Source: Neelides folsomi (taxonomy: Eukaryota; Arthropoda; Collembola; Neelipleona; Neelidae). Taken from it: a DNA stretch of 64,000 nucleotides. This document shows positions 25,605 to 60,586 of this stretch, piece by piece. Position numbers and translations under genes: made by a program. The notes below the pieces were generated by a model that was given only the letters and a program-made list of their open reading frames with translations, searched no databases and was not told where the DNA came from. Where the stretch lies: positions 231,796 to 295,795 of the forward strand of contig JAQGBZ010000041.1 in the NCBI GenBank assembly GCA_034687125.1. The letters run 5' to 3'. The stretch's first letter is position 1. Each line of letters opens with the position of its first letter.

Positions 25605-27805
25605 ATGCTGTTTTATAAATATTTAATTACGAATTTTTTGTCAGATTCGAGTAAAGTTGGATCCCAAAAGAATGGAAATCCTTCAAATGTTTCTTCAGGG
25701 GAAAGGGAAAATCATAAATTGAGCGAAGAAGTGAGAAACATATCATCTTTAGCACAGCAATCTTCTTCAACTTCATCCACAGTGAGAACAATGCTCACGA
25801 ACGGGAGTGACAAAGGGAAATCGAGTTTGCTCGAAGATAAGAAAAATGTCCTTGCTTCGGCTTCCTTAACAGAGAGAGAAAATGTTGAGAGAAAGGAATT
25901 GAATCGAAATTCAGAGCAGCCAACAAGAGAAGCTAACGAACCCAACGACTTCATCGAAGTCTTGGACGATTTAGAAGACAATTTAGAATTGGATTTCGAC
26001 ATTAACGATTTTGAAAATGAGTTTGAAAAAATTTCAAATGAATACGGAAAGCCAAATGCTGAGCAAAATTTACCCAATTTAGAATTCAAACCCAATGTCT
26101 TTGATGCTCCCAAAGTACAGATAGACAAAAAAGACAAAGTCAAGTTCCTTGACATGAAAAGTTTCCGAGAATTGAAATTGTGCATATTTGGAAAAGGGAA
26201 TTCGATACCTGATGGATGGACAGATCAAGGATTCACCTTTGATTACAAAATACCCTTCGGATTGGTTCAAAAGAAAGTAAGTTTTTAGGTCATTCCTTAT
26301 AAATATCTTATCGATGGCATAAAATAACCTTTTATTATACTTTTACCTTCATGGTTCTGTCTTCTATGTATAGCTGCCTCTATTGATAGATTTATTGATT
26401 AGAATTGAATAATTGAGCAATGAATGGCAATGGAAGCAAAGTTTTTATTAATTATAGGGAGGTCCATGTGGAGTACTCGCTGCTGTGCAAGCCCTCACTC
26501 TCAGAAATTTAATGTTCGGCTCTGAATTTTGTGATAAAAGTTTACCAATGACGGGGAATATTGTCAATTACCAAGAACAAAAAATATCGATGGAAATTGC
26601 CAACAAAAAGTCTTTAGCTCTGGAAGGTGCCATTACAGAAATTCTATGGAGGTGTGGGAAGAAAAATACTGCAGAGAATGTTGAAACTTTCGAAACGTCC
26701 ATTTGTCTCGGAAAAATCACAGTTGGATCTGAATATCTCGCTATCAGAAATTTGGATTCACTCAAGTCTTTCGTTAAAGCCAATTTACACCGAATTGATT
26801 GTTTGAGTCTGGTTTACTCTGCAGTTCTTTCAAGAGATATTCAAATGTAATATGTAAATATATTTTATATTTATCCCATAAGCTTACATAAAATTATATG
26901 CTATATTACTGTTTAGTAAATATAAAAGTACAAAAAAAATTATAAGTAATTGATATCATGAGTATTATGTATTTATTATGAGAGCCGTATAAGATTAATT
27001 TAATCGGATTTTCATTTTTAGAGTTCAAGATGATATGGATTTTTCAAATTCGTCCTTTTTGGGACAACACGGGTATTGTTCTCAAGAATTGGTTAACTTG
27101 CTCACAATTGGAACAGCGACTTCAAATGCCTTTGATGGCCAAGTCCTCCTCGGAGATAAAATTCTTAAAGGAATTGAAGCACCTTGTGATATTGGCTTTC
27201 TGTCTCTCTTTGAACATTACAATTCGTGCCAAGTAAGATTTATCTTGAAACTTAAATACCCAAAACAAATAAGGAAAGGAATTCAAATTTTGTTTTCATT
27301 TTTTTCATATAGGTTGGAAATTTTCTCAAAAATCCAAGATTTCCTTTGTGGATCGTTTGCAGCGAGAGTCATTTCTCCATTTTGTTTTCCAATTCAATTG
27401 ATCTCGTCCTTGATGATTGGCAGGAAGAATTAAAAATGTTTGAACTTTTTTATTATGACGGCCTTGGACGGCAGCAATCTCTGATCAAGATGACAATCAG
27501 TAAGCGAAATATTTAAATTATGCAATACCAAACCCATCAATACATAAACCACACCTAGCCTACCTGCATGTTATTACTCACCTATATTTGATATTTAAAT
27601 ATTTTTGAGAAGGGGAAATTAATTATGTGATTATATTTTTTTAGCTCTTCCAGGTGAAAACGAAGATGAGTCGAGACGCAAGAAAGGCAATAACAACCAA
27701 GAAGAACCACAAAACGATGATCTCATTCCACCACTCGAAAAGTGTATTCGAACTAAATGGAAGAAAGCAGGTGTAAATTGGAACGATACCGAGCCGATTT
27801 TATAA
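25605..27805 (+). CDS. MINDY4: MINDY4-type Lys48 deubiquitinase (FAM188 family)
   Basis: Five exons: 25605-26276, 26458-26846, 27022-27232, 27313-27499 and 27645-27805, phases 0/2/0/1, 539 residues as modelled. Residues 1-190 are a Ser/Glu-rich disordered region. The catalytic domain starts with [34 protein letters not shown], where Cys228 is the catalytic cysteine. Family motifs [31 protein letters not shown] and [13 protein letters not shown] follow, with His444 the catalytic histidine. The EHYN-CQ and ESHFS blocks match MINDY4 better than MINDY3. Family knowledge: MINDY enzymes trim long K48-linked ubiquitin chains. Vertebrate MINDY4 is about 757 residues with an N-terminal LisH region; here the start is uncertain. 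The ATG at 25605 is in frame, but an acceptor-like CAG at 25642-25644 allows a spliced upstream exon instead. Confidence 0.87.
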
Positions 27806-32342: not shown

Positions 32343-34644
32343 TCAACTCGGTTTATAAATCACTCATGTAATCAAGTGGCACCAAATCCTACACTCAGGA
32401 TCCTTTGAAGTCCATTTTAGCAAACATTGTGCGCATTTTTTTGTATCTCACTTTCAATGTCAGATTTTTCAATGCTCTTTGTGTTCCTTTTTTGCACTCA
32501 CATTTATTTGAATTTGATAGACAATTATTTAAATTTTATTTCTTTTCAATTTTGTTATTTTATTCATAATTTTATGCCTGATATGCCATAATTTTATGCC
32601 ATAATTTGATGCCTGTAATAAATAACGTTGTGTCTTTTGATGCAATATTTACCTTTGCCTCGACTTTTGCTTAAACTAATTAATTATACAAACTGAATTA
32701 CTAAATATGGTTGTACTTTTCAACTTTTGTTTTTATTAACAAGTCGTGGTGAACAGAATATTTGACTGAATAATGCATTTTAGAGTAATTAATATTACAT
32801 ATACAATTGTGTCCTTTTCTTTAGCAAGTTTAGGCTTAAAATTGGTAAGAACCTTCAGGTAAATGTGTTTTAATAAAGATGGTTTACAAAGAATATCAGA
32901 TTTAATACTTAATTCTTATTTATATTTAATCAACTTGTATTTTTCTAGATTAATACAACTATAATATCAATAAAACAAACTTGGATTTCAAGCTTAATAC
33001 ATTTCTAGTTTTTTGTTTGCAAAATGCATACCAGCACGACAACACCATGTTACTTAATTATTTATTCTCTTGTAATTATAAAACATCTTAATAAATATAT
33101 TCGATAAATAACAATTGGCAGTTATTTTAACTGTGTTATGAACTTATTATTTTTTGTTACTAAAAGTAAGAGTAAAAAACAATGTTTTGGAGTTGTGATA
33201 AACTAATGATGATATTCATTAAGGATTCGTTTCAAAGACATAAAATGATTGATTTTGTAAGGTGGAGTTAACTACAATAAGATACATTTCATAACTGAAA
33301 CTAAGTACTCGCATTATTGTAATTACCATATTTTTATCTTGCATATGAACCCTCATAGATTGTCAATTGTGTCACAAAATTCTAATACATAGAGCTGAAA
33401 GCTGAACCATTGCCATTATATTTTACAACTAAAGCATCTACAATAATGAAATATTTCATGAAGAACTTCCTTAATTATTATAATTAAGGTATGTACCATA
33501 TTTTTGTACATTATAAATAAATCTTAAATATATGTATAGAGAGCATTTAAGAAAATAAATCAACCATCAACCCCACCATTAAAGATCTATCTTTTTAAAA
33601 ATTATAACTTGATTTCAAAGGAATGTTTAATTCGAGTTAATTATCATCTACTTAAGAGTACATTCATCTTTTTTACTAAATTTTTATACTAGAGATCACT
33701 AAAATTCAAAAATAGATATAAAACACATAATTGATATAACATAGCATAAATATTTATAACATAATATCAGTAACCATTTTTAAACTTAATGAACTAAAAA
33801 TTAATGCTAGACATTCCGCAGTTATTACAAATCTCAACCGCTTTGAACAAGCATTTTGTATATATTTTACTTAATATAAAATATGTACATATAATAAGTA
33901 TGGTACAGGTATACCCAATCTATTTACATAGGTATGTACCATAGAGTACCTACTAGGGATGTCAGTTTCGATAAAAATATAAATACTGATAAACGATAAA
34001 TCGAAATTCCATTTACCGATTAATCGATAAAATATGAAAAAATTGAAAAAAGTTATTAATTATGATTTTAAATTTAAAATATGGCATTATCTTTTAATGA
34101 GGTGTCAAAAAATCATATTTTAATTAAAAAAATTATGCTTGATTAAATTTAAATATTTTGACAATCTTATTTCAAATATATTTTTCATTTATATTATAAC
34201 TAAAAATTGATAAATACATTGGTTATTTGGACTTATAGAATAATCTAAATTAAAGATTTTTTATTAAATCATGTTTTTAATCAAAAAATTCCCCAAAATC
34301 TCGATAAATCCCAGTAAATCTTATTGAATTTTGCATTTGATAATTTATCGAATTTCTCGATTTATCGACTCAATTTTTATCGGTAAACGATAAACCAAAA
34401 TAAGACAATTTACCGATTAATCGATAAACGATTAATCGGTAATTGACATCCCTAGTACCTACCATATAAACCATTACATAAGGTTGTATTTATTGTATTA
34501 AAAATGAAAAGTTAGTCGTAAGACATACAAAAGCTTCTAGGTAGTAATACAATAGACATTAGACATTCAAAATATTCTAAGGAAGAGTCAAGGGATTTGT
34601 AAAGATTTGATTTAAAAATGATAAAAAGATTTCTCATTATTTTT
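32343..34644. other. Convergent intergenic region with a MITE
   Basis: AT-rich spacer between the coiled-coil gene and the 3' end of the M13 gene. A poly(A) signal-like AATAAA lies near 32620. The only recognisable element is the hAT MITE at 33954-34454. Confidence 0.5.
33954..34454. mobile_element. hAT-type MITE with perfect 8-bp target duplication
   Basis: The 501-bp element begins TAGGGATGTCA and ends TGACATCCCTA, perfect 11-bp terminal inverted repeats. It is flanked by GTACCTAC at 33946-33953 and 34455-34462, an exact 8-bp duplication. Subterminal regions carry many CGATAAA/TTTATCG repeats in both orientations. No coding capacity. It shares the terminal TAGGGATG with the MITE at 404-846 but has different internal repeats. 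Confidence 0.92.
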
Positions 34645-37600
34645 TCATAAGACAATTCCGCAAGTAAAATCAGCATACATGTAAGAATTCTTGGAACATT
34701 GGAATGCTCTTGAAAATCCAACCATCTGTCTTAAAAGTCCTTTTGTTCTGAAAATGAAACGTAAAGTTGGTTAAATTGAGAAAACATAAAGAAAGGAAGA
34801 CACTTTTTTGCCATTTGGAGTGAGTCCAATAAAAAGGTTTGAGTTTGAAAGATATTAATCTTCAAAACGATCATTTAGAAAATTCTACCAATATAGACAT
34901 ACCCATTTTAAAAAATAGAAATGGGATGAGCGAAGATATAAAGGAGGAGACATAAAGAACTAAACGGTTTATAGGCCAAACCATTTACTATGAAGGTTAT
35001 TGTTATCAAATAAATTAATTTGGAAGCCTTTACCTGTGGTCGTGACTCAACGAAGTAAACACGGCATGTTCCATATCATGGTAAAGCATTGTTGAAGAAG
35101 AACACTGGGACTGAAATATTAAACAAAATAAATGTAAACGTTTGAAGTATAAAACACTAATTAATAAAGTTTTTAGCCATTATATACAAATAAAAAGCTT
35201 TAAGATTCAAACTTTACTATTATTTAAATTTAATCCTTGTGAGAAAAACTTTTTAATCAAATTCTCACAAATATAAAGTATGCCTCGATACATAAACTAT
35301 TATCTAACATGTTTTAAACAAGAAGATTAAAAAGAGATTTAGCAAGTGAAACGAAAAATGAGGATTTTACATAGAAGTCATATACCATAGATCTACCATA
35401 GATATATGTACATGTTTATTTATACATGGAAATCTTGTGCTTGTTGAGATGTATCGCTTTCAAGAATTTTAACTCCTATCTTTCAAATGTATAAATTAAA
35501 AGTAATTCAAGCGTGAAAGTTGAATCTATTTATCTCACTTGTCCATATGATATGAAGAAGAGAGCCTTTGTGGAAAAGCTTTCTAATCCTGGAAGGATTT
35601 GAAAATTCCCTTCATCCTCCAAAGTTTTAAGAGTGTCAAACGCAATTTGGATTCCAGCTAAATGCATAGTTGTATCCAAAGATGTTCTTTTGGTGTAGTC
35701 TTCATCATCCAGTCTTATTTTCGAGAAAAATGAATCTATACAAGAACGCTTTGTTTCAATCTGAAAAAAAGTTTAAATACAAATTAAAATATATTACCTA
35801 TGTATATAATGTACATATAAGTATCTGTAGTTAAATAATTTTAAACCCAAACAAATAAAACAAACGTTCCCATAAATCGTTACACTTGTTAGATTTAATG
35901 CGCAAAAACAATGTTTATAGGAAATTGAATTGATCAAAATCAATTTAAAAATGATGAAATATGGGGAGGAAATAGCTACTAATAAAATAACATTTTACTG
36001 TTTACCATTCCTCGACTGGTCTGGGTTTTATGATCCAAGATAGACATTTGGGCTCCATCGGATAAATAAAGTCCGTCTTCTATTCCAAACGCTCGTCCCA
36101 TAGCTTCTCCGATTTGAACTCCCACAGAGCCATATATCAACGGCCTGGAATGATCAATAAAGCATTAAAAAATTGAATAACAAACTTACTTCCAAACAGA
36201 CAGATTCGTTTTGGCTCAAAAAAGATATAAAAACCCAAGATATGAAATCCAATTTAAGGGGAATAATAGTATTTAGGAAAGTTGAGAAGAAATTTAATTA
36301 TATACTTACAAGTGAGAATTATCCAGACTTAGAATGTCATTATGTAAGGCGGCTTCTGGGAAAAATATTTTATTGGATGTGGGGACGAAGTGTGGACGGA
36401 AGAGAGATTCACTCAAAGAGCTCAACGTTCCCGATTCTTTGCTGGGATTAGCCAAATTAGTTTGTTCCACTTTTATTCCAAAGGTCGTTGCGATGATCAC
36501 GTTCACAAAAAAGTCATTATTTTGGACGTCCAATGGAAAATAAAAATCTTCAAGGACGGTTCGATTCCGAAGCGGAGTCCCGATTTGAATACTCATGAGA
36601 CGGAGCTGTGAAAGTCAATATTAAAATTACTATGTATATCAGGCTTAAAGAATAGGTAGATATGTTATTAAAAAAGAATTTGGGTTTTTGTCATTTACGG
36701 AGCCATAATTCATCTCCACAATCTTTCATGTGAGATTAAAATCCACAGATGACTATAAGGTCTCGATCTTTAATGGGATGGGTTTTTAGGAAATTCCAGA
36801 AAAAGAATGTTTTTACCTTGTCAATGGCAAAGTTTTTCATTGACTCATCAAATCTTGATAATGAATCAAGCCTCTCGCTGAATGCGCTTCTCATAGAATC
36901 AAACATTTTTTCAACCTATAAAATATATCCCAATTAGGATTCATTTGAGAAAGCTAAAACGAAATTTAATAACCAGAGAGTTTTTTTTAGGAATGTAAAA
37001 GGAGTTACAATCAGATTATTTGTAACGTAATGTAATCAGACCCAACTTTGGATATATGCATTTAGGTATAGCCTATATGCAATTATACTTTTAAGAAATA
37101 AATAATATATAAAGGAATTTAAACTTTCAATATATAATTGAAAGTTTAAAGTAAAAGCTTTTCGAATTGAAATAGCATGCTTACCTTTTCTCTTCGTTCC
37201 ATCCAATTATCAGAACTTTCAGCCAAGAGAGCATTTATTGCATGAGGGAAGAAACGAACTGTCTCGTCTATGCAAAACTCCCATCTCGGAAGTTCTTTAA
37301 AACTTCCTAAAATGGAGAAAGTTAGTTTAAGTGGGGAATATTTGAGTGATTTTAAGTGTTAATTTATTTCCTTTGTATTTTTAACTTTGTGGTAAAATGT
37401 TAAATGTACAAAATTTTTCGAACCAATCGTATCCTTTCTGAACTGCTCCAAAGACTCTGTATATTGCTTCGATAAGTAAGGCAAATACTTCAAAGTAAGG
37501 TGCCAAATTAAGTAGTTGTTCAAGTTCCTGGAAATTGAATAAATAATTAGGAATTGACCCATTTTATAGAAAAAAGATGCAAGAAAAGATCTTTACCCTC

Positions 37601-40600
37601 TGTCTGTCGTAGAAATAATTGATGAGATATCCTGCAAGTAATCACCTTTTGGCACTAAAACTTCAGTTTTGTCATTAATTGTTCCCTGAGGGAATATTGC
37701 TTTAAGGAAATCACTCCAAAAGATCTAAAAAATTACAAAGAATTAAGCTTTACATGCTAAATTTATTACGACTCGCTTGAGAATATTTACTACAAAAGTT
37801 TAAAACTATTTCGCCTTTGACATTTTTATTATTAAAAAAATGTTGGGAATATATCCAAAATATTAAATCGAATGTTGAGATTTAGAATTTACCCCCAAAT
37901 ATTAAATTAAATTGAATGTCAATTTTATGATTCATTGAAAATTTTACGATTGTTAAATTAAATACATTACAACTTATACAACAAGAGCAATAAGAGCACA
38001 AAAGTAAAAAACGTTACCTGTAAATGAAATTTTTTAAAATATGTATGTTTTATGTATTTAATAATTATTCGATAATTTTCTTATATTTTTGAATAAATAA
38101 AATTGATAATAAAGTTTGGTATAGAGTAATTGTGAAAATTTAATAGTACAAATACAAATATACTTAGAATAAGTTTTGAAGAACTTACTGTATTTGACAT
38201 CGATTTCAGTTTCTCGACAGTAACCTTTTCATATGATTCAATGGGATCTCTTAAATCAAGTTTTTCTGGAGTTATTTCAGCAACTCTCTTTTCAAAATTG
38301 AAGATTTCATCTGCAAACTGGGAAGCCATTGTGCTGGTTGCTCCAAACTCTTGTACAACATCTTTTGCAAAGAGACGAAAAGCAGCTGCCACCTTTTTAT
38401 GAAAATCAAATTCTTCATCGTATTCAAAAAAGCTTTTATCAGACCATGCACGTTTTTTGCATCTAGATACTTGAAATTCATTTATGTGCATTGAATCACA
38501 AATGCAAGTAGTAAGCAGTGTGCTCAAAAATCCATCACTCCACAATAAATACTAATTGTCTATACCAACATATTTTATATTCATACATAGGTAAATAACG
38601 TACCATTGTTTATATGCATTGAATGTCTATCTGTATCTAAAAATTAATCTAATATTTTGCTAGAATCCCCAAAAAACCTCCACCAACACATGTACGTGTA
38701 CTGGAGTATGTAATGGGTTTTTAATGAAAAGCCTAGGGAAAAGACCTTGTTTAGCTATGAAAGAAAGAGAAGAAGAATTGTAAAGTAATTTTTAATTCTT
38801 TTTTCCCAAATTTTCTTCCAGTCTAATGGAACATGTTGAATTAAAGTTAGGAGAAAAGTTGAGAAGCAAATAAAAATGAAAAAAGCACAGTGAGAAATTA
38901 TAAAGGCATTTACTGTACACTTTTACGTTGATCGAAATAACTTTTTTGAATCAAATCGTTGCACCTTCTAGAGCATTCGGATTTCACCAACAAGGGCTAC
39001 AATAATAATAAAAATAAGCCAAAAAAGTTTACGCGTTGTCAGATAAGGAGTCAAAGGCATAACTGTCATACAGATGACATTTTAAAAAATACAACCATTT
39101 CTTGATGATAATTCTTAGAACTAATATTGTAAAACGATGCTAATTATACATACTTAATGTATGGATTATGGAGCATTAACCTTCTAAGAATATATGTTAA
39201 CACTATATAATTAATTTAATTGTGCAAATTATGTTACACGTGTAAGGTATGCTATTTATGGTACATACTATAATATTAGTAAAATATAATATGCATAATA
39301 TGTATGTACATAGTATTAGATAAATAGTGGTAGAGTTTAAGATACTGTGCCGAATTTGCAAACTAATAATAATAACAAATGTGAATCATCAATTTCATTA
39401 TTTAAAAATCAATATTGAAACGAACTTGACTCACCGGGTCTTCGTGTTTGAAATAATAGTATTTGTCAACGAGGCTGAGTCCAGCTGGAAGTATCTAAAA
39501 TTATTGAGTATCTTTAAATGAAAATCTCATTTATACTCCGTTCTCGTTTTATTACTTTACAAAATTACACTTGTCAGATGTGCTGCACTGAAAATCTTTA
39601 TCTTAATCTTTACCTTGATGATATTCCTTGCTGGAGTCTTTGGATCAGGAACGACCTTAACTTGAAAAAATGGACTAGTCCTATATTCACTATGCAGCTT
39701 TTTGAAAAGTCGAGGAAAGTCAAAATCAGCAGCTCTAAAAGACCGAAGAACGTTCCACCCTCCTGCCATTTAAAAAAAAATCTTTGTAAAAGTCCATTCT
39801 TGTACGTATATTATATCAATTAATTATATAGGTAAGTAGAGTAAGCACATATAAGTTAAGTACATTTAATACAAATACAATACAATATAATATAATATAA
39901 TACAAACACTATACTAATATACCTATATAACGAAACTTTAAATGTTTAATAATAATGATACTACATGAAAACCTACAAAGAATTTGTAAAACTTTATTCG
40001 ACTAATTGAGTAATTCCCCAACCATAATTTCCATTTATTCAAATCTATTCAAGTGTATTTATTTCTATACAAAGGCACATCATTCGTTTGACTTAATTCA
40101 ATGATTTTACAAGCTCATATTAGGCCATATAGATATTTCAACTCGCAAAACGTTCTCCCAATGGCATATACAGGTATGCACCTTATTAATTACTTTGTGA
40201 CCTAAATGATTATTTATTGTAATAATTGATTACAAATACTTTTAAATCAATTCAATCATAATTTTCTTAGATTTAAATTTTTTTCCATAAACATTTAAAT
40301 ACATCTACTTATTGTTAATTTCAACTTGAAATCAATATAAGAGTATTTATATTTATATCATTGATTTACAACATAAAACAAAAAATTTTCATAAAATGAG
40401 CATGAGCGTTTAAGTAGAGCTACTAATTTAAAGTAAAGAAAGATTAAAAATTCATTAAATAACAATGTAAAAACGCAATGATCAATGAAGATATAATTTT
40501 TTCCACCAACATCTGTCTGTAAACATGTTCAAATAAGCATTAAAGCAGGATATACAGAATGGGAAGTTGGGCCATTCTTACAAATGGTGTTAATTACGAG

Positions 40601-43600
40601 GACAATAAATTATTCCAGTCTGGCAAAAACACGAAATTAGAATATCTCTTCCCCCACACTCCTAAGCTCCCCCATGATAATCTTCTTTTTTCAAACGAAA
40701 GGAAGTTGTTTCCCAATTCCATTTCTTACCAACGGATAGATGCGAAAAATTAAGCGGGTTGACATAATAGCTTCATCCACATTCATCCCATTTGGTTAAA
40801 GTAGACTTGCTAAATTTAGGTGACTCCCAACTTACCCAAAGACGTAATGATCTTTTTCAAAGGTTTGTCCCCATCAGACTCAATGTACTGGATATTTGTG
40901 CAGGATTGGTAAAATCGATTGATCTTAACATCTACTGAATTTTCATATGCTCCCGTTGGAAGTGTATTAAGTAGGTTTCTTATTTTAGTTTTAACTGAAA
41001 AACAAAAATTGGATTTTTGAGTTAGAAAAACTATTGCATGCTACATCCTGACGTGAGAGAACCACTCCTCATTATAAAGAGAATTAATAAATAATGAAAT
41101 TTCATTCAGAAAATTCATTATATAAAGAGCAAATGAAATATAAGTTAAATTGACGAGTGAGAAATGAATGAAATGATTCTGGTTTATAATGTCAAATGTA
41201 GGCCGGAATGGACGTAATACGTAACTAATAAAGTCAGGTTAATAAATAGAATAGGATTTGGGTTCTCACTTTGGAAATGTTCTAAATCTTCGGAGCTCCA
41301 GTACGCTTTGGATTTTGGAATGGGATTTGCCTTCAACCACCCACCGCACGAAAACTCCCAAATATCTTCACATGGTTCAACGCTTTGATTCACTGCCCCC
41401 AGGACCTGAATAATGAAAATAAAAATGTTCACTTTTTATTCTTAAAACCTCCCTTAAATGCGTCAGAATCTTAATTTAAAAGTCAAATGGCAGCAATTGC
41501 AATCTCAATAGATAATCAATAAGAAACCTCTTTCGATAAAACTAGAATGGAAAATGTTTTCACGGACTCAGATTTGAATTTACACATATTATATCAAGGA
41601 AAGTAAAGTCGTTTGTATAACTCATGTAAATTCCTTAAACATGCATGTGTTGTAATAATAATAAATACTAAATACATCGTATGTATCTACATACTTAAGC
41701 TTGTATACATAAGTATTTAAATATGTAGATACATCGTATGTATTTACATACTTAAGCTTGTATACATAAGTATTTAAATATGTAGATACAGACAGAGATC
41801 AATAATAACAATTAAATGTAGTTTGCTGAATGCGCGTAAAGTACAAAGTATTTCGCCAAGTAAATTGTAATTGTATACTGGATAATGTTTTTTACAAATT
41901 CCATACCCTTTAACCGGTTGCAATAAATGTACATGAGGCAAAAATGCAATAGAAGTTTAAAGAAACAACTCTCATGATCTTGATAGCAATTGAATGTAAG
42001 AAGGTGTGAATGTTTCAATTTACCTTTAGAAATACCAATTTATTGCAAGTAATTTGTACTTACATAATATACAATACAATATACAATATATGTATTGTAG
42101 ATATTTAGCACAATGGATAGAAAATTAAATATCTATTAATACCTGAATTACTTAATGTTTGTAGTTAAATTGCAACTTGAGACATAAATTATGTAATAAA
42201 TTATTCATTGTTACATAATTAATTTTATTTCAAGATGCTTAACAAAACAAATAAATAAATGAATTCCATTCAATTGTGAAAGTTTAATGAATTTCTAAAC
42301 CATTTTAAGCTCCAAATAATGTGCATCATTTTAGTTGCATTCAAAAATATAATGGAAAGTAAACAATGTTCACACACACAAAGTAATTGAAATTGGTCAA
42401 AAGCAACAAAACGACTAATTATAACTTTGAACTTTATGTAATTATAACATATATGTATGTATGTATAGCAAAACCTATTGTAGGATCATCAAATTTCGCT
42501 TACACTGGTATAATCAAGTAAATATTTGTGTTTGTATTCTTTGTTGTACTCAAATTTGATCTTTTCTAGCAAATATACGAAAATGCTAATTTGATTTTGT
42601 AATCTATCCTATGCTATGTATTTAATGTGCAATCAAATTCAAATTATGTGAGGATGAAAGTATTATCAATTTGCTCTCATCATTGTTTGTCAGTGAATTT
42701 AAATGTATGTTTAATACCTTTTTGTTTTGATTTTGAAAATCATTTACCAAATTACATTTACGATAAAGCGAAATTGACCTAATAATCTAATGTAATATCT
42801 AATTGATAAAGGCGTGGTTTATCAATTATAAATTGAATGCAGTTCATCTTGATATAAATTAATTTTAGACCCAAATAAATCTTTTAATTTCCAATCTTGT
42901 TTTAATAAAGTATGAATCATTATCAAACCCACTTTCAATTTCATCCTCATATATCACAGTTCAATAAACATATGGAGATTTGCAAAAACTCATTTGTCAT
43001 ATCAGTTCATATATTATAATTACAGGGAGGGCCATAAGTATCTTTCTTTTTTTAATCAGTTCGTATCTCTTTTAATCTTTAACCAATTTTTCAAACATTT
43101 GGCAATGGTAATGCTTATATATTATATAATATATTCAGTAATATTATTTTGTCACTTGAGTTCCATCAACTTCGAGGCAGCGTTGCAAACGCAAACAAAC
43201 GACAACTTCACATCCACGTTTGCACATAGCAACCTGAACTTCTGCAAACGCTTCGACTATTCCAGCCTGATTTCATCAAGTGTTGATGGAATCTTGGCGT
43301 AAACCTTGGTTTTGACAAAACCCCATAAAAAGAAGTCCAAGAGAGTGAGATCTGGAGAGCGCGGAGGACATGGAAAAGCGCCTCGTCGGGCCCCGTCCTA
43401 TCCATCGCGTTCCAAAGTTCGCGCTTTCTCAAAGAAAAGTAGCTGTCGTTTATTTATGCTTTGACCAAATCAGTTTTTAGTTTGCTTCATTGTAGATGGA
43501 TATATTTAACATAAATCGCCGATGTTTAAAGATTTTTATCTTTAATCACATTAAAATGGTAGCCCATTAAAAAAAGAAAGATACTTATGGCCCTCACTGT

Positions 43601-44277
43601 ACATAAGTAATTAATGAGATTATGTTCTATCCCTGTGAGTAATATGAATGTAATCTTCCATAATATTGTATAAGCTTCTTAAAATTAGGATTCGATACAC
43701 TTATCAAAACATTTATATCGAGAATCATGACCCATTTATTTGCCTTGACTTATTTATTTATTCAAACCAATGATGAAATTGGATTAAAACATCAAAAGCA
43801 AAAGGATCATCTCAACTCATCCTTTCAACCCTTCAAAATATTATAGAAATTAATCTTTTTCAATAAAATGTGTAAATAAACTTATTAATATGAGATCTAA
43901 TAATAAAAGGATTTCAGTCAACAGTAATGAACCTTCGAAGCGAATTCGTGGCATTGAGCTGTTTGGCAAACTGGAGCACTGGGACTCCTCGGCCACGAGA
44001 CAGCTAAAAGGATGAGGATGAGAAGGAGTAAAAAAATGATCGAAGAAGTGACGATAAGGTACATGAGGCCTTTCTTCGGAGTTATTCGGCATTTATACGC
44101 CATTCGGTCCAAACAGTCGGCTTCGTTAAGATCGTCCATATTCGCCAGGTCGCTTCGTTCATTATGGGGATACCGGTAGCCTTTGCTAGTCATTTTCAGT
44201 GGTTCCATTTCTGGGTCTATTTCCTGTGGCTCTGCTAGCCCATTCCCAGGAGCATTTTTATTCTCAACAACCTCCAT
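34645..44277 (-). CDS. M13 (neprilysin/ECE) family membrane protein lacking the zinc site: predicted pseudo-peptidase
   Basis: Fifteen exons: 43933-44277, 41270-41405, 40836-40994, 39614-39762, 39435-39494, 38189-38551 (left boundary sure, right uncertain), 37597-37724, 37424-37527, 37185-37306, 36817-36915, 36310-36605, 36006-36144, 35539-35760, 35034-35110 and 34645-34747. Phase is continuous, 833 residues. It is a type II membrane protein: cytoplasmic tail 1-70, TM 71-93, then cysteines 104, 109, 127 and 135 as in neprilysin (PCEDIWEFSCGGW), the all-helical M13_N domain and the M13 domain to the C-terminal AFQCSKNSYMYADFTC. The HExxH position reads EAMGR (667-671) and the ENxxD position reads TTMHL, so all zinc ligands and the catalytic Glu are replaced. 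The fold is otherwise intact with no frameshift or stop, so it is not a decayed gene. Inactive M13 homologues such as Drosophila gone early are known. Confidence 0.88.
41674..41787. repeat. 57-bp tandem duplication
   Basis: Two head-to-tail copies of a unit starting ACATCGTATGTAT and ending near ATGTAGAT, period 57 bp, differing at about one position. The unit contains short palindromes around TTAAGCTT. Confidence 0.85.
43023..43599 (-). mobile_element. Tc1/mariner-type element, internally deleted
   Basis: A 577-bp element with terminal inverted repeats CAGGGAGGGCCATAAG (left) and CAGTGAGGGCCATAAG (inverted right end), extending over about 34 bp each, flanked by TA dinucleotides at 43021-43022 and 43600-43601. 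On the minus strand it retains the 3' end of a mariner-like transposase: the block PRSPDLTLLDFFLWGFVK, the motif around the last catalytic acidic residue. An in-frame stop follows about 25 codons later. The element is well short of a full-length mariner (about 1.3 kb), so it is a dead deletion derivative. Confidence 0.88.
43275..43415 (-). pseudogene. Mariner-like transposase 3' fragment
   Basis: The translation resembles the C-terminal third of insect mariner-like transposases (PRSPDLT-LDFFLWG-VK, then TLDEIRLE). It has no start, its 5' part is missing and a TAG interrupts the frame after RLE, so it cannot make an active transposase. Confidence 0.8.
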
Positions 44278-49369: not shown

Positions 49370-52154
49370 TCTACTATATATATGATACTTCATAGAAAAA
49401 GACATCGTCCAATTAACTTCAAATAATAATTCATTTGTTTCATCGAATTACTTAGTTCATACGCATCGTCAAGTCTAGACGAATATGACAGGCTGTGAAT
49501 ACAAGGGATGATAATGTGAAGGAATATTGTTGTGAGTGATGGAAGAAATGAGGAAGTGATGGATGCTTGTTTACGTAGCGTAAATTTAGGAGCTATCAGT
49601 GAGGATGATGATAATTTCATGGCGAAGACAGGTGGCTTCAACGCCTTCTCCGTCAATAATAATACAACCGATACTATTTTAGACTTTCTTAACCAACGAG
49701 GGATCTTAAGTTTCCTTCAACTTGAGCAAAAAACCTGAGCCAATGCACATTCGATGATCATCTTCAAAGCCTCGAGAGATTTGCTATGAAATTTGTTACG
49801 TTTTCGCCTTACTCCGCTGTTTCCTGTAGGATTCATCCAAAGGAGATTTACTCTCAAGACAATGCAATTCGCTTATAACAAGACAATGTAAGTTCCACAT
49901 ACGAAATGCTCAGGAACACAGGAACAAATGAGATATTTTGAAAATTGCTAATGTTCTTGCATTGAAATTGTATTTAACTTATTGGAATTGAAGCAGCTGT
50001 TCATATTTACTTAAAAATTAGAAAAAGAAGAGTAAAAAACGTCCCAAATTCTTGAGCCGATAATGAGTGATTGACGAGGAGGGCGAGAGAAGAATCTTAA
50101 TTCAAGACACTTCCGTTTTGTTTTATTGCTCAAGTGGATGTCAAAGGGTCTAATTGCCTTTTAAAATCGATAAGCTTCGCCAAGAACCCTCTTTTACGGT
50201 TGATTTAATCTCCTGGTGAGAATCTAACTTGATTTTAAACCTCAGAATGTTAAGTAATTAAAGTACATAATGGCCTTCCATTATATTCAACTGCTGGCAT
50301 ACTTCTTGTTTGCGCAATTACCATTTTGCATAGTGAGAGCAAGCGCTTGCACGTGGAGACAAATATTTACGACAATTCTTTTCTCTATTAAAAGAGATAG
50401 GTGAAGGAATTTTAAAGACCGCATACCGCATCAACAAAGAAATTGAGGAAGGAGAATTGCCAAGTCGTCGGAATATTTTCTTATTTTATTAATGCCTTTT
50501 AATTGCTTTCTTCTCAACTCTGGAAAAAACCCACGCTGTGAGGGAAGATGCGATTTTTTCCTTCTTTCTATTTAATGTGAATTAATTAAATATTTTCAGG
50601 GAATGTTCACACAATATTTTTATATTGTAGGTAGTGGAAAAAATAGAAACCAATTCAATTGTAACTCATTGATTATAATTACCAATATAATTGTAAATTG
50701 TAAAAAAAGTTGTATTTTTTCAGACAAGAGACAAATTAATTACACAAGAGTATGTTTTATAGAGTATAGTATTGGAGTATATCAGAGATCTCATTAATTA
50801 GCTTACCACAACTTACAACTCACAATAACATCGAATCAATGTGAAAAACAAATACAAATAGTGTAGGCAGGTTGGCACATTCTTTCATTATTTTGTCTTT
50901 GATTGTGTGTGCGTCTTATTATGTTTATTTTTTAGTATTCGTAAATAAATTTATTCCACTCAATAAATGCTACAATGTATTTACATAATGAAATAGTTTA
51001 GAATTACATGGAATTTGTCTATTTTATTTTGAACACCATTAAAAAGGGACATTAATACTTAAGAGAGAAGTTCGTAGTTATTCAATTTCAGTTCATTAAA
51101 TTCCTTTGATGAAAATTTTCCTATGTTCACACATAAGATCAAAGTATTATATTTATTATTGAGCTATTTAATTGAAAATAAATGGTAATGCAATATGTTA
51201 TGTATAAAACATTATTTACAATTAACTTGTTTAGTTCAATACAATCTGATACTCTTATATTAATATAAATTATGCAAAATAGTAAATTGTGCAATAACAT
51301 CGGAAACATTGGTCATTTATTATATAAATTCTTGAACCATGACTGGATGAATTGCCATGTTGGAGGAAGTGGGAATAAACGGAGAAAGTTATAAGGTGAA
51401 GCCACGGCAGCTTTCTCCCAGTCTTCTTCTGCATTTCACCAAGAGACTTTCTCCCCGTTCTTTTTGCACAGCCAAAGTCCCATTCAGAACATCCTTGGAA
51501 TATATCATAAAGTTTGTAATTAATTTTTAGAACTTCCCAAACCAGTGAGATGAAATATAGTTTAATTAAATTTTCCATTAAATTATTTTAAAACCAACCC
51601 TAAGGTAAAAAAATTAAATTCATATTAAAGTGTGGTAAAAAATTGTGTAAAATGATCACTCGCATTTTTGTAAATTGAATTAATTATCAAAGTATTATAA
51701 AGTGAAATTTAAAGTGCACCACAAGAGAATTTTTAAGAGGTTTATTTTGTAAAAAGAACTAAAAGCTTTATAATTTTCAATTCTGATTAAAATAAAAAAT
51801 TCTTTAAAATGTGTCTAACCGGCTTAGGCGTGATGTGAACGTTTTTGATTGGATTTTCCCAAAAATGCAAAAAAGTGAAAGTTAAGCCAATTATTTATGA
51901 CTTGAATTTTATTAAACCGTCATAGTTTGAAATTCTGTCACTCGAATTACAGTTACCCTCAAACCATTTATGACACATTTGCCAAAAAAGATTCCATTCT
52001 TACTTAATGTGAATTAAGAAGTTAAAAACGTGATAAATAATAAATTATTTATGAACTTCGAGTTACTTTTAATTAAGTTGGAAATTTTCATGATGAAATT
52101 TTGGGAATGTTGAATTTATTGAGTTTTAATTGATTCACGTTGAAAACCACTACA
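49370..52154. other. Intergenic, with a possible minus-strand exon
   Basis: Mostly AT-rich. A frame at 49532-49738 and its antisense have no recognised content. On the minus strand 51270-51493 is open after an acceptor-like TTCCAAG and encodes a Cys- and basic-rich peptide (CSEWDFGCAKR), weakly suggestive of a secreted peptide. The last few hundred bases should contain the GPCR promoter. Confidence 0.35.
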
Positions 52155-55100
52155 ATGAGTGATTCCTTCTCCTTTCCCCCAACCGAGCCATCTGACCTCT
52201 ACTATTCTCTAGAATTAAATTCATTTAATAATTTTACTAGAAACGAAAATAGTTCCATCAATGGAAATGAAACTTCGTCAGATTTCGAATCCGAACCTCC
52301 AAAAGAATTTAGTGAAATCAGTTCAAACGCCAGAAATTGCGTCATCGTATACTTTTTTCTATTCATCATTTCTGCAACAGGGAATTTGACCGTGTTTACT
52401 TCAGTGTTCCAGCAAATGAGAAAATCCAAATCTCGAATTCTTCCCCTCATCTTACATCTCTCCATTGCTGATCTTTTGGTGACTTTCTGTGTCATCCCTC
52501 TCGAAATCATTTGGAGACTGACTGTGCAGTGGTACGGCGGGAATCTTCTTTGCAAGATTTGTCAATTCTTTAGGGCTTTTGGGCTTTATTTAAGCAGCAA
52601 CGTTCTGATGTGCATCTCTCTTGATCGCTTCATGGCGATTGTATATCCCCTGAGAACTTCCCAAGGGGCAAACCGGGGACGAATCATGCTCATTGGAGCA
52701 TGGATATTTTCCGCGGTCTGCTCAGTCCCGCAAGTAATTCTTTGTTTTTTCTAAATTGGACCTTTCTTAAGGGCTTAAAGGGACACTGCCATAGATTACT
52801 ACTGACTGTTGTACATGCACATATCGGTAAATCGGTATACAGTATCGGTATGTTTGTAAATAAGGTTTAAGAGTAAGTATGAAGTCATAATCCAATAAGT
52901 ATAGTGCCTGAGTATAGTAAATAAATAAAATATAAAAATTTTCAAGAAATTGAAAATTTCGGGGTAAAAACGGATTTATTTTTCAAAAGAAATGTATGAT
53001 AGCTATTCGTGCCTTCTATACAAAGATCTATTTATAATGTAAATACTAATCTTTTTAACAATGCATCTACCATTACTATACAACCAATGTTAAAAATTGA
53101 ATTGGGAAATGTATAGAAAGATGCAATTTTACAATTTTCTTTATTTGCAGTGCTTCGTCTTTCATGTGATGACCCATCCAAAGTATAAATCTTTCAAACA
53201 GTGCGTGGCAATTGGATTTTTCCGATCTGAAGAAGAAGAACGGTGGTATAGCATTTTCTCCGTTTTTGCTCTTTATTTCTTGCCACTAGTCGTAATCGTT
53301 TTCACCTATGGGATGATACTCTGGAAAATCAGTCGAAAGGCAAGACAGCACAAAGAATCAAGTAAGTTTTATGTGTTTGTTCATTTGTAGTAATCTAATC
53401 ATAAGTAGAGAAAGTAAAATACAAATACTTACTTTGCTATATAATACAAGCAATACATACCATATTTATGTGTATACCTACTCTTTGTAGATGAAATGTT
53501 TTGATTTCATATGAAAAACACTAATTTTCTGCGTTTAACCGAAGTTGAAAAGAGCGTTGTGAATTATATTATTTAAAAAGATTATATTTAAGTAGGGAGT
53601 TACGAAACTATTTTTAGAAAACAACGAGACGAAAGATTTTATCTTTAAAATAGTACAATAAGAGTAAAAAATGGTTGCGAACAAAAAAAAAAGGTTTTGA
53701 ATAATATTTATAGCAAAGAGTGTTGGAGAAACGAGTGGAAAAATTCTTCTAAGGAGGAATGAAGCCCACACCCAAGTAATGGAAAGAGCCAAAAGCAAAA
53801 CTTTGAAATTATCAATCGTAATTTTCATTGTTTTTGTTCTTTGTTGGTCGCCATATGTCACAATGACCTTATGGTAAGTATACTCTAGATCGTTTGATTA
53901 ATTATTGATTTATATACATAATATAAATACTAAAGCTAGGTGAAATCTTAATATAAATATTTATTCTCCAGTGTAAGTTGCGTACGAACTTTTACCGGTA
54001 ACGGGGCGAGAAATATAATGTTATAATCGACCATTGTTTCATAATGCCCAATAGAAAAAGAACAATAAACGTTTATTTTTGAGCGGGATTTAGAATGCTT
54101 GAAGATTTGAACTTACTTTTTAAAGTATCCTTAGTAAAATACGATAATACCTTAAAAAGTTTTCATCCAAAGTTTTGGATTTAACCATAGATCCGTTATG
54201 CTTTACATGTTTATTTATCCTTCAACGTCCTGCTATGAATTTAATAACACCACAGACTTCACAGACTTCCCGCATTGTCATTTTAACCACTCTTTCTGAA
54301 AGCAATAATTTAAACTTGAATTTAATTTGAAAAATTTGTATGCAGGTATATGTTTGACAGAGAAAGTGCAAAGCAAGTTAATTCAAGTCTTCAGGATGGA
54401 TTGTTTCTCATGGCAGTTGCAAATAGCTGTTTAAATCCTCTAGTTTATGGGAGTTATACAAGAGAATGTCGAGAATCATTTCCAAGATGTTTATACGGAA
54501 GAGCTCGTCGAAATGACTTTGTCGAACAAAGGAGACAATTATCAAGAAATGCTACAGGTATCTTATTAAACCTTAAATAAACTTTCTCTGTCGTAAGGTA
54601 AAAGTAGCGTAGTAACGATATTTCCTAGTTCCGGTGTTGATAGTAATTCTTTAAACTTACTATGCATTTAGTATAAATATTATATACCTACAATTTCTCA
54701 GAATTTGTTATTTGAATGCTCTATATAAACGTTGCAACAAAATGCGCAATAGATCAATAAATCACATCAATATTCGCTATTTAAAGCTACAAAAAGTATT
54801 ATAGATTATTTTTTGTATTTGAGATCTTGGAAAATCTAACGGTGCTTACTTGCGTGCAGGTATTTTTATAGTTCCAGTTTGGATTTATATTATAATCATT
54901 TCATAATCTTTGAACTTAACTTTCCTCCATTCCTTTGAGTATAAAATTTAATTTCCGTCACTTTTTCACAGTGACTTGCGGTCTGGACTCAACCTATCAA
55001 ACTATTAATGTGAAGCTAGGCTCATCTGCATTTAATGCTCCTCGTATTGAACGAGTCATTCCTTTCATCCTTGAACGAGCCGACGTTAATATGGGTCATA

Positions 55101-56054: not shown

Positions 56055-59000
56055 TCAAAGTTCGACTTTATTCCGCCCTTCTCGCTCCTCGTCCGATAAG
56101 AAGATGGTTGAATGGGTGTTAATAAATTTCTAAAAATAGAAATATAATATATTGATATGTTCCATCTGTCAAATGTATTTTTTTAAATCCTTAAAATTGA
56201 TTTACAGACTTTTCCTATATTTAGTCCTTAAATGTTCAATCGGTTGGATGAAGGGGAAAAACTACAAATTATAGTGAGGATGAAGGGAATCAACGAAGTG
56301 AAATGAAATTTGAAATGGTCAAAGGGGAATGACCAAAAAGAAACATAAATTATCTTTTTGATGTCCTTACCTTCAAGTGTGAATATGATCTATCTCCATC
56401 ATAAAGGACGGGCTCGTGCTTCTTGTAAGCTCGTATGAAGAAGATCGTGGGATATCCCTTGATCTCGAATCCCGGAGGAAGATCATTCCCACTCCCGTCC
56501 ATTTTCACAAAAAGAATTTTCTCTCTTTCCATCTTTTTAGCCATTCTATGGAGCAATGAAGGTAAGCGTTAATTCGAAAAATTCGTAGAGTGCAAAGAAT
56601 TTCAAAGAGCCATTTTAAACATATAAAGGGAAATTCGGTAAAATTGTTGCTGTTACTTTTTGTAAGTTGGCTCAAACTGCTTACAATGTCCGCACCTATG
56701 TAGTTGGAATAAAAATAGAAAAATTTATTTTATTTACAACCTCATTTTTGTATATAAATGTAAGTATTATCAAAAACCATTCACAAGCTACCATAAAATG
56801 TGACCAAATATAAGATCATGAGTATAAAAGTTGAATTAAACCTTGAATTCACACTGTGAACCATATTTGCGTACATAAATGCAATACCCATAAGTACAAT
56901 AAGTAAAAGATGTACCATACATAGGCACGTCATACCATGCATACTAAAATCTCGTAAAGGAAAGTTTTTGGGTTTTTACGTAAACATTAAAATATTTAAG
57001 AGATATATAAGAGATAATAAAGAGATATGCATCTAACTACATATTTAGGTATATTATATTAAATATCGTAAGATTTATATTACACTAATATGCGAACATT
57101 GAGAATATTTCTCATGTGTTTGGAAGTTATATAAATTTATATCGTTATGTGTTATTTGAACATACCATGGGGCATAAACATAAAAAATAATATCTTGGTC
57201 TTTTGACTTGAGCACTTTTTCTTCAAAATTGTCGGCGACGACGGTTTGAACGGGTCCTTCTTGGTTCTTTGGTACGGGAAGCGATTTCCACACAGGTTTC
57301 AATTTATCTAATGCCCCGAATAGAAATAAAGTTATAAGAAAAGCGTTAAAATAAGATCAGAAGAGTCAGCGAATAACGCTATAAATAAAACACACGACAT
57401 ATTTTGGGTTTGACAATGACATTTATATAATCCAACGCACCGTCATTGGCAAGATGAACAAAGGTCCTTAGATCGCTCCCATCAAAATCATCAGACGGAT
57501 CCATACGATATTTCAGTCTGTTATTGTCATACCAGACGACGTTGACGTCAACGCCCGAATCACTCAATTTCACCGCTTCAAGCTCGCTCTCAAACTCGTC
57601 CTCGTTCGCCACCGCGAAACTTTGAAGTTTACAAGACAATGAATTCATAAGAAACCCTTAAGTGCCTCTATTCTAACTAAGTATAAGTAAGGATCTTAAA
57701 ATAGGAAAGTTGGAGCTTAAATTGCAATCTTACGTTATATACGGAAACTCTTTTGCCACTTCCACAACTTTTGATCGAACTATTTCGCTGCTTTTTTGAT
57801 ATTGATGATCAAAATTCGCATCGTAGTACACAACAACCAAGGGGCGGACGGAATAGAAAAACGCTTGATTCAACTTTGTTCGCTGTCCGACTAACGGCCG
57901 GTAATTTGCTCGAATGAAATCCGCTATATCATCCCCAGACTTGGAGCTCTAAAAACAAAAGGTGATAAATATGTTAGATAGTAGATGCTATAAAAATTTT
58001 CTTCATTTTAGCCACATAGATAAAAGAGAATCTAAAAGTAAATTTTCCTCATTATGGGAGGGGAATGAACGAATGAACGATCTACCTTAAATTTTTTATA
58101 AAATACACGCAACAATGAAAGCTCCAACTTCAACAACAAAGTGAAAAGAGTACTTATAAATAAAATGTAAGGTACGTATCTTCTATGCATTACCCAATTT
58201 AAGCGCGCAGTTTTGCAACTTTACTATTGTTACACGTGTGTTACGAATATTTTTGTATAAAAATGGGATTTAGCTCACATACATACATGATACTACTCAC
58301 ATGCTATTACGCACTCGAGTAAAATTAAATACCTTTGTCGAGTGGCTTCATACCGAAATCTATCTTATTAGCTTTATTTTTTGAAAAAGCAATTTAACTT
58401 ACAAATATTAATTTTACATTAAATATTACAACTATGTATTACATAGGTACTCTTAGAAAATTTTGAAAGATAGATGTTTTGATATTAAACGGCTGAACAT
58501 GAGGAGATGAAAAGATCAACAAAATGAAAAAAAAGAAATTGTAAGGTTTACATCTTTTAAGGCGACTTCTTTCTTCTCGTAATTGGAGAGAAAGACGGAA
58601 GGTTTCTTTACAATGACAGCTTCTTCATTTTCTTGTACTCCGAGGCCCTTAGCCACAGATTTATGAAAAGAGTGGACGAACTTAAGGGGTTCGTTGCGCA
58701 AGAAGTTTGCCACCGCAAAGAACTCCTCATAGAATTTGGATTTCTCTGAAGAGAATATTCCTATGATTGTCGGAAGCAATCTCTCGACCCGGTTTTCAAC
58801 TTCTAGTAAAGTTTTGCATTCAGTTGAAGGACTTTTCAGTTGTTCTTTCATGTATCCAATAATTCCTTTCTCGTCTCGTGTCCCTTTGTACTCAAAAGCT
58901 CGACCGTTCCTGAAGATATTCAACGTGGGCCATCCAGTTATTTTATATTCGTCAGCCACATCTTTGTATTTTGTCCCTTCGATTTGTACAAGCGGAACTC

Positions 59001-60586
59001 CATATTCCTTGAGAACTTTTGCAGCATTAGCGAACTCCGGCTTGATCTGAAAGTTAATTTGATTAGTTTAGTTATCATATTAACATAAATTTAAATTTTA
59101 AACCATTAAAATGCAAATAGTTCAAGTTTTTTCAAGTTTTTGAAACTGAATAAATCCCATATCACATAAAACCAATAATCATGGGTCGTTTAATGAAATG
59201 TTCTATAATAAAAACATCCTCACCTGCTGACAGTGTTTGCAATATTCTGCATAAAATAGCACCAATACTAATGGCCTTGACTCTAAAAACTGTGAAAAGT
59301 TTTCTCCAGTAAGTTCAATCACGCTTGTAGGTGGAGGCTTCCAATTTTTATCAGTTCTCGCAACCATATAATTAATGATTCCTGAATACGAAATAAAATC
59401 ACAATTAATCCAATAAGTCAATTTTAATTTAATATTTAAAATTACAAAATTATACGTATATTTCAGTTGAAATTAAGCAGAAGCACTAAAGACTACTTTC
59501 ACAAATACCTATAGGTGTTGTATGTATCTGTATTTGTAATATAAAGATATTTTGCCAAAAGTCAATAAATATTCAATCATACATATATGTAAATACATAA
59601 ATACATAGCATGTATTACATAGGACGTGTAAATATTACATATACAGGTATGTACCAGCAAAGGAAATATCACGTACCATCAGCCGTTCTATCTCCATTGA
59701 ACTCCTCTTGCTTCACTCCATTCTTGAATAGAATTATAGTTGGGAAGCCAGTGATCATATAATCCTTTGCGAGATCTGTCTCCTTTGTCGCATCCACTTT
59801 GCCAAGTGTCAAATTCATCACTTTTAGGGCAAGGGCTGCGCGAGAATATTCTGGTTCTAAAGATTTGCAATGTCCGCACCTACAGATGTATAATATTTAC
59901 GATTTATAATAATAAATCTTATAAAAGATTTTAGATATTCACAAAAAATGTTTGTAAAAAGTTAACTTTTTTGTATTATACGATCACAACAAATATCAGC
60001 CGACATACTGATTCCAATGCAAATTATAAAATGAATATACAGTATTACTCTCTGATATATGAGTACATATGATACATAATTATATTGATCATTAAAGTGA
60101 ATAATCCATTTAAATTATTGCCATTAAAGATAAAGTTTTAATGAATAAACTTCAAGCACGTACGGTGATATTCTTATAATTTAGGTTCCAATAATGTTAA
60201 TATTGATCTTTACATTGATACTTACCAGGGAGCATAAAACTCGACCAATACATATTCCCGGTTGTGAATTACATGCTTAAAATTATCTCGTGTGAGAAGC
60301 ATCACATCATTTTCTTCTGCCACTACATAGTTCCCCTCAATATCCAATACTTCTATATCTGTAAATCGGGAGAATAGATTTATAAGAATTACATGTAACG
60401 TACAAAGTACTATGTAAGGTATTTATTATAATTATGAATGCAAATATTATTGTTTTAAATGACGACTTTACCTCCATCGTTCGTTACGAGTTCTTCTCTT
60501 TTTGTCTCTTCATCTGAAGCACCATGGTGGACAAAAGAGTTTAATATTAAAAATAAAATTCCTAATGTGATGTGATTCATTTTCAT
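56055..60586 (-). CDS. PDIA4: Protein disulfide-isomerase A4 (ERp72)
   Basis: Eleven exons: 60472-60586, 60226-60358, 59677-59879, 59224-59381, 58552-59046, 57734-57948, 57441-57619, 57166-57307, 56657-56695, 56371-56545 and 56055-56129. Phase is continuous, 642 residues (human ERp72 is 645). Signal peptide [17 protein letters not shown]. Three thioredoxin a-type domains: active sites CGHC at 84-87, CKHC at 198-201 and CGHC at 548-551, with b/b' domains between the second and third. Typical blocks are [32 protein letters not shown] and [14 protein letters not shown]. The C-terminus KVEL is a KDEL-type ER-retention signal. Role: oxidation and isomerisation of disulfides in the ER lumen. The middle site has Lys for the usual Gly. 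The ATG at 60586 is followed in frame by another at 60580; either gives the signal peptide. Confidence 0.95.

Follow-up and report, generated by a model that had tools for sequence, protein, structure and literature searches.

A springtail M13 protein with a replaced zinc site, probably a member of the gone early group, in the genome of Neelides folsomi

An M13-like gene and its altered active site

The stretch of DNA analysed here (the window) comprises 64,000 nucleotides of the genome of the springtail Neelides folsomi (assembly GCA_034687125.1, contig JAQGBZ010000041.1, positions 231,796 to 295,795) and carries a gene for a neprilysin-like protein, which we regard as a probable counterpart, in springtails, of the Drosophila protein gone early (Goe). 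The gene lies on the minus strand between positions 44277 and 34645 and consists of 16 exons encoding 831 amino acids (Table 1); all of its introns are GT-AG and their phases match. Both Pfam domains of the family, Peptidase_M13_N (PF05649; 279.2 bits, cut-off 32) and Peptidase_M13 (PF01431; 60.7 bits, cut-off 24.5), score above their cut-offs, which on sequence grounds places the protein among the M13 (neprilysin) homologues. According to the predicted topology, a cytosolic tail of approximately 69 residues is followed by one hydrophobic segment and the ectodomain.

None of the motifs of active M13 proteins (HExxH, ENxxD, NAxY and CxxW) is kept. In alignment with the active proteins, EAMGR (residues 665-669) takes the place of HExxH, DTTMH (727-731) pairs without gaps with ENxxD, RPHF (623-626) occupies the NAxY place, and the C-terminal CxxW, which has lost its Trp, reads CGIVL. 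The two zinc-binding His and the catalytic Glu are replaced, as is the Glu that serves as third ligand, which becomes Asp727 in the ungapped alignment; the gapped alignment produced by HMMER pairs a Thr instead. Ten cysteines (104, 109, 127, 135, 192, 491, 705, 775, 815 and 827), which we take to be structural from the disulfide map of neprilysin, are retained; the disulfide and substrate-binding roles of the aligned neprilysin residues are likewise presumed. Arg798 is retained as well, and an aligned Arg is present in all 17 non-Goe M13 sequences that reach this position; the pocket has therefore not been entirely erased.

These alignments agree with the original prediction, made from the sequence alone, that the catalytic residues had been lost and that the cysteines, including the C-terminal ones, had been kept. 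Its interval, 35539..36144, spans exons 13 and 14 from end to end, and the sequences there read as it had them, with small corrections: EAMGR stands at 665-669 rather than 667-671, and the replacement of ENxxD is real, the proposed TTMHL being one residue off the ungapped pairing with DTTMH. Replacement of the NAFY region, given as HFVPTSNK, holds for RPHF at the NAxY place and not for the trailing PTSN, which is also found in the active Neelides locus L023.

The least certain part of the gene model is exon 6 together with the initial 23 codons of exon 7. This insertion (38914-38996 plus the start of 38462-38189) adds approximately 50 residues, among them three additional cysteines (291, 295 and 312), and has no counterpart in 12 of the 13 aligned relatives, namely those that span the place; the thirteenth, the metagenome protein P0002, begins downstream of it. 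Codon usage left the matter undecided (-0.8 for exon 6, +4.8 for the exon 7 extension), the score being a weak one that is also low for exons 3, 9 and 16 of the same gene. A form of 15 exons and 780 amino acids without the insertion is also in frame, and the stretch is possibly optional. Of the earlier statement that 15 exons keep the frame, the intact frame thus stands and the count becomes 16 in the new model, with the 15-exon form equally in frame.

Table 1. Exons of the M13-like gene and other features of the window (positions are those of the window)
Feature	Position	Strand	Content
Exon 1	43933..44277	-	Cytosolic tail, hydrophobic transmembrane segment (about residues 70-93, by eye), first luminal cysteines
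Exon 2	41270..41405	-	M13 N-lobe begins
Exon 3	40836..40994	-	
Exon 4	39614..39762	-	
Exon 5	39435..39494	-	
Exon 6	38914..38996	-	Uncertain; part of the insertion; may be optional or not real
Exon 7	38189..38462	-	Initial 23 codons uncertain, like exon 6
Exon 8	37597..37724	-	
Exon 9	37424..37527	-	N-lobe; NLNNYLIW
Exon 10	37185..37306	-	PRWEFC
Exon 11	36817..36915	-	
Exon 12	36310..36605	-	Catalytic lobe begins; RPHF codons 36398-36387, at the NAxY place
Exon 13	36006..36144	-	EAMGR codons 36107-36093, at the HExxH place
Exon 14	35539..35760	-	DTTMH codons 35676-35662, at the ENxxD place
Exon 15	35034..35110	-	SQCSSS, HDMEH, SHDH
Exon 16	34645..34747	-	Arg798 codon completed; C-terminal cysteines, stop
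Element in intron 1	43021-43601		581 bases; 36-base inverted ends, 97% complementary
Tandem repeat in intron 1	41672-41790		57-base unit, 2.1 copies, 98% matches
Element just downstream of the gene	33941-34467		527 bases; 27-base inverted ends, 81% complementary
CS domain (NudC-like) reading frame	705-1406		Pfam
Codanin-1 C-terminus reading frame	3719-4921		Pfam
MINDY-3/4 deubiquitinase reading frame	26458-26847		Pfam
Rhodopsin-type GPCR (G protein-coupled receptor) reading frame	52134-53387		Pfam
Thioredoxin/calsequestrin-like protein reading frame	58519-59067		Pfam

The end sequence of the element in intron 1 occurs 131 times in the genome when at most one mismatch is allowed, versus no occurrence of a reversed control, and at least 20 of the listed occurrences are found no more than 400 bases from the end of a contig; at a guess, the element resembles a mariner-type miniature inverted-repeat transposable element. 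The element downstream of the gene, which holds internal CGATTAATCG repeats, resembles, again at a guess, a small hAT-type element.

Relatives of the Neelides protein

Among the matches listed, the nearest protein is that of the springtail Orchesella dallaii (P0001), with 48% identity in a full-query BLAST match and 53% in our alignment. Its altered sites read GEAIAQ and DTTMH, its C-terminus is similar, and it has nothing that corresponds to the insertion in exons 6 and 7. It is followed by the metagenome protein P0002 and then by proteins at 32-35%, including those of a termite, Tigriopus and Lepeophtheirus. Drosophila Goe was absent among the matches listed (120 of 185 and 120 of 140 in two protein searches, each drawn from a capped set of candidates).

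For phylogenetic analysis, the Neelides protein was combined with 18 of the matches P0001-P0030 (leaving out P0013, P0015-P0017, P0020 and P0022-P0028), the 10 of 12 further M13 loci of the same assembly that exceed 300 residues and 8 other M13 proteins. In this tree of 37 sequences, the Neelides protein and 18 others form one clade (support 1.0; support values are taken from a split test), which includes the termite protein P0008, labelled "protein gone early", as well as proteins of Timema and copepods. The same split, with support 100, was recovered from the N-lobe alone (33 sequences, four further ones dropped) and from the C-lobe alone (34 sequences, three dropped). Because each lobe by itself yields the split, the grouping is not due to the shared loss of the active site, and the Neelides gene is most likely, as judged from these trees, a member of the Goe clade by common descent with P0008.

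HExxH is present in none of the 19 clade members compared; the position of the catalytic Glu is Ala in 17 of them, and HE reads EA in 10. At the level of sequence, loss of the zinc site is hence not peculiar to the Neelides genome, and, being common to all 19, it makes the Neelides case less novel than the original prediction held. The link to gone early that it proposed has turned out to be closer, since the gene nests within the clade. The Glu found at the first ligand position in Neelides recurs in 9 of 12 copepod-side sequences, most of which are metagenome proteins and two of which come from named copepods, Tigriopus californicus (P0009) and Lepeophtheirus salmonis (P0010). Like the Neelides protein, these two lack HExxH; they are 32% and 35% identical to it overall and only 25% and 26% identical in exons 13-16.

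Three named clade members, P0001 (Endothelin-converting enzyme 1, UniRef), P0010 and P0011, carry endothelin-converting enzyme (ECE) labels in databases, and these labels are misleading. Human neprilysin and ECE-1 (PDB 1dmt and 3dwb) share the cysteine positions with the Neelides protein and, to judge by a model of the Orchesella protein, probably the fold; unlike it, they are active zinc enzymes with HExxH, ENxxD, NAxY and CxxW. Drosophila Goe (CG9634, Nepl2) is a type II membrane M13 homologue, the topology predicted for the Neelides protein too, and like the latter it lacks HExxH and the third-ligand motif and has EA in place of HE. The fly motif is given in a review as EAxxD, with V as the third-ligand residue (PMC11266112), versus EAMGR and DTTMH in Neelides, and the fly cytosolic tail is given as 129 residues (PMC4242634), versus approximately 69.

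A Pfam search of the Neelides assembly led to the 12 other M13 loci, 10 of which have HExxH, counting the partial locus L032, which reads HEALH. At locus L033 no exon was recovered at the HExxH place. Locus L027 (contig C5) reads HEISY there and retains ENIAD, and is probably a second M13 pseudopeptidase of this genome. No second Goe-like copy was seen in the assembly: strong matches were confined to the contig of the gene itself, and those on other contigs were weak (28-42% identity, E no better than 2e-6) and fell mostly on the other M13 loci, with one weak N-lobe match on contig C82 outside the fetched loci. The COI gene, on a 15,157-base contig of the assembly, points to a springtail as the probable host, provided that this mitochondrial contig belongs to the host: below a best match at 93%, the matches P0149 to P0184 (79-82%) bear springtail names or the label Collembola, two of them confirmed as Collembola, and the first beetle follows at 77%.

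Conservation of the two lobes

Between Neelides and Orchesella, 218 of 409 positions of the N-lobe (53%) and 110 of 179 positions of exons 13-16 (61%) are identical. Decay of the gene is unlikely given this identity in the N-lobe and in the former catalytic exons, and the earlier description of the protein as constrained is borne out at the protein level, the motifs matching as well.

We compared 27 pairs of proteins, chosen from those possible, dividing the identity in exons 13-16 by that in the N-lobe. This ratio was 1.55-1.64 for four active-enzyme pairs, although the active sequences from Neelides are crude joins of profile hits that may favour conserved stretches and inflate these values. 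It was 0.62-0.66 for the Neelides protein against five copepod or insect Goe proteins, 0.68-0.84 for three other cross-class Goe pairs, 0.65-0.91 for six copepod-side pairs, 0.75-0.93 for three insect pairs and 0.74-0.94 for the Neelides protein against three active sequences. Three springtail-side pairs gave 1.06-1.18, and the Neelides/Orchesella ratio differed clearly from those of three copepod-side pairs (z 4.1-4.7, a rough value given that sites are not independent). As far as these sequences go, the pseudo-site lobe of Goe is less conserved than the N-lobe between arthropod classes and at least equally conserved among springtail-side sequences. That the pseudo-site was freed from catalytic constraint long ago is well supported; that it was later fixed anew within springtails is a lead.

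Proposed role and alternative readings

Taken with both domains, the phylogeny and the replaced motifs, the gene very probably encodes a springtail member of Goe, a membrane-anchored M13 pseudopeptidase that would act without proteolysis. A convergent origin, in which a different, Nepl-type M13 pseudopeptidase was inactivated independently in springtails and came to resemble Goe, has some precedent, as catalysis is often lost among M13 proteins (21 of 28 Drosophila members are predicted to be inactive, as reported in PMC8223033) and as locus L027 of Neelides itself reads HEISY. Yet the N-lobe, which excludes the altered site, places the protein with Goe on its own, no other Goe-like copy was seen in the assembly, and the first-ligand Glu is shared with copepod-side sequences; we therefore hold convergence to be very improbable. 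Still harder to credit is a decaying pseudogene or an error of assembly or gene model. The uncertain insertion would fit such an error, but the 16 exons are in frame with GT-AG introns, Orchesella conserves the N-lobe, exons 13-16 and the motifs, and most of the other M13 loci in the assembly read HExxH; on these grounds we rejected a pseudogene and an assembly error.

A rebuilt metal or ligand site would be compatible with membership in Goe. E665 (where active enzymes have a zinc-ligand His), D727 (the third-ligand Glu) and H731 (the Asp of ENxxD) are identical in all three springtail-side sequences, and Arg798 is retained; the second His position, however, is R, Q or R in these sequences, which number just three and include the metagenome protein P0002. 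We consider such a site distinctly unlikely. It is also unlikely that the dead site of springtails has become a new conserved site, perhaps a metal or peptide pocket on E665, D727, H731 and Arg798.

To our knowledge, the function of Goe is known only from the fly. As a Goe member, the Neelides protein would stand at the cell surface and work without proteolysis, its ectodomain would bind either a ligand outside the cell or a factor that regulates such a ligand (in Drosophila, of the epidermal growth factor (EGF) pathway), and this binding may lower signalling in neighbouring cells. By analogy with the proposal for fly Goe, a non-cutting surface binder is the most likely role, and the remodelled pseudo-active-site lobe of springtails probably belongs to the protein's functional surface. 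Work in Drosophila reports that Goe is located at the membranes of germ cells, that its extracellular region is both required and sufficient for a small-wing effect, that overexpressing it reduces dpERK and that it works jointly with argos (PMC4242634); according to a review, Goe has been suggested to trap EGF ligands (PMC11266112).

Several points weigh against this picture. The EGF role of Goe rests on fly genetics, and the structure model, with its neprilysin fold, is that of the Orchesella protein and not of the Neelides protein. The trees were built without Drosophila Goe, the clade being named after the NCBI label on P0008, from a termite, and after the EA motif that the review gives, and the sampling of other clades is thin (18 of the 30 matches P0001-P0030 are in the tree). 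The middle stretch (566-652) is identical between Neelides and Orchesella at only 30 of 87 positions. Within the springtail pairs, the difference between lobes is not significant (p 0.07 for Neelides/Orchesella, 0.55 and 0.11), and the Neelides/Orchesella ratio differs only weakly from those of two pairs of insect proteins (z 1.9 and 2.3, rough as above).

M13 proteins without activity are common, and Goe has been described before; what is new is the springtail member, and no report of Goe in springtails or copepods was found among the titles and abstract openings listed from the open-licence literature. The least expected point, conservation of the pseudo-site among springtails, is a lead drawn from the sequence comparisons. 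As a springtail Goe, the gene extends the group to springtails and copepods, and by parsimony the loss of catalysis would predate the split of these lineages. In that case Goe would be an ancient and stable surface protein without enzymatic activity, and its conserved N-lobe would be a good place to seek its partner.
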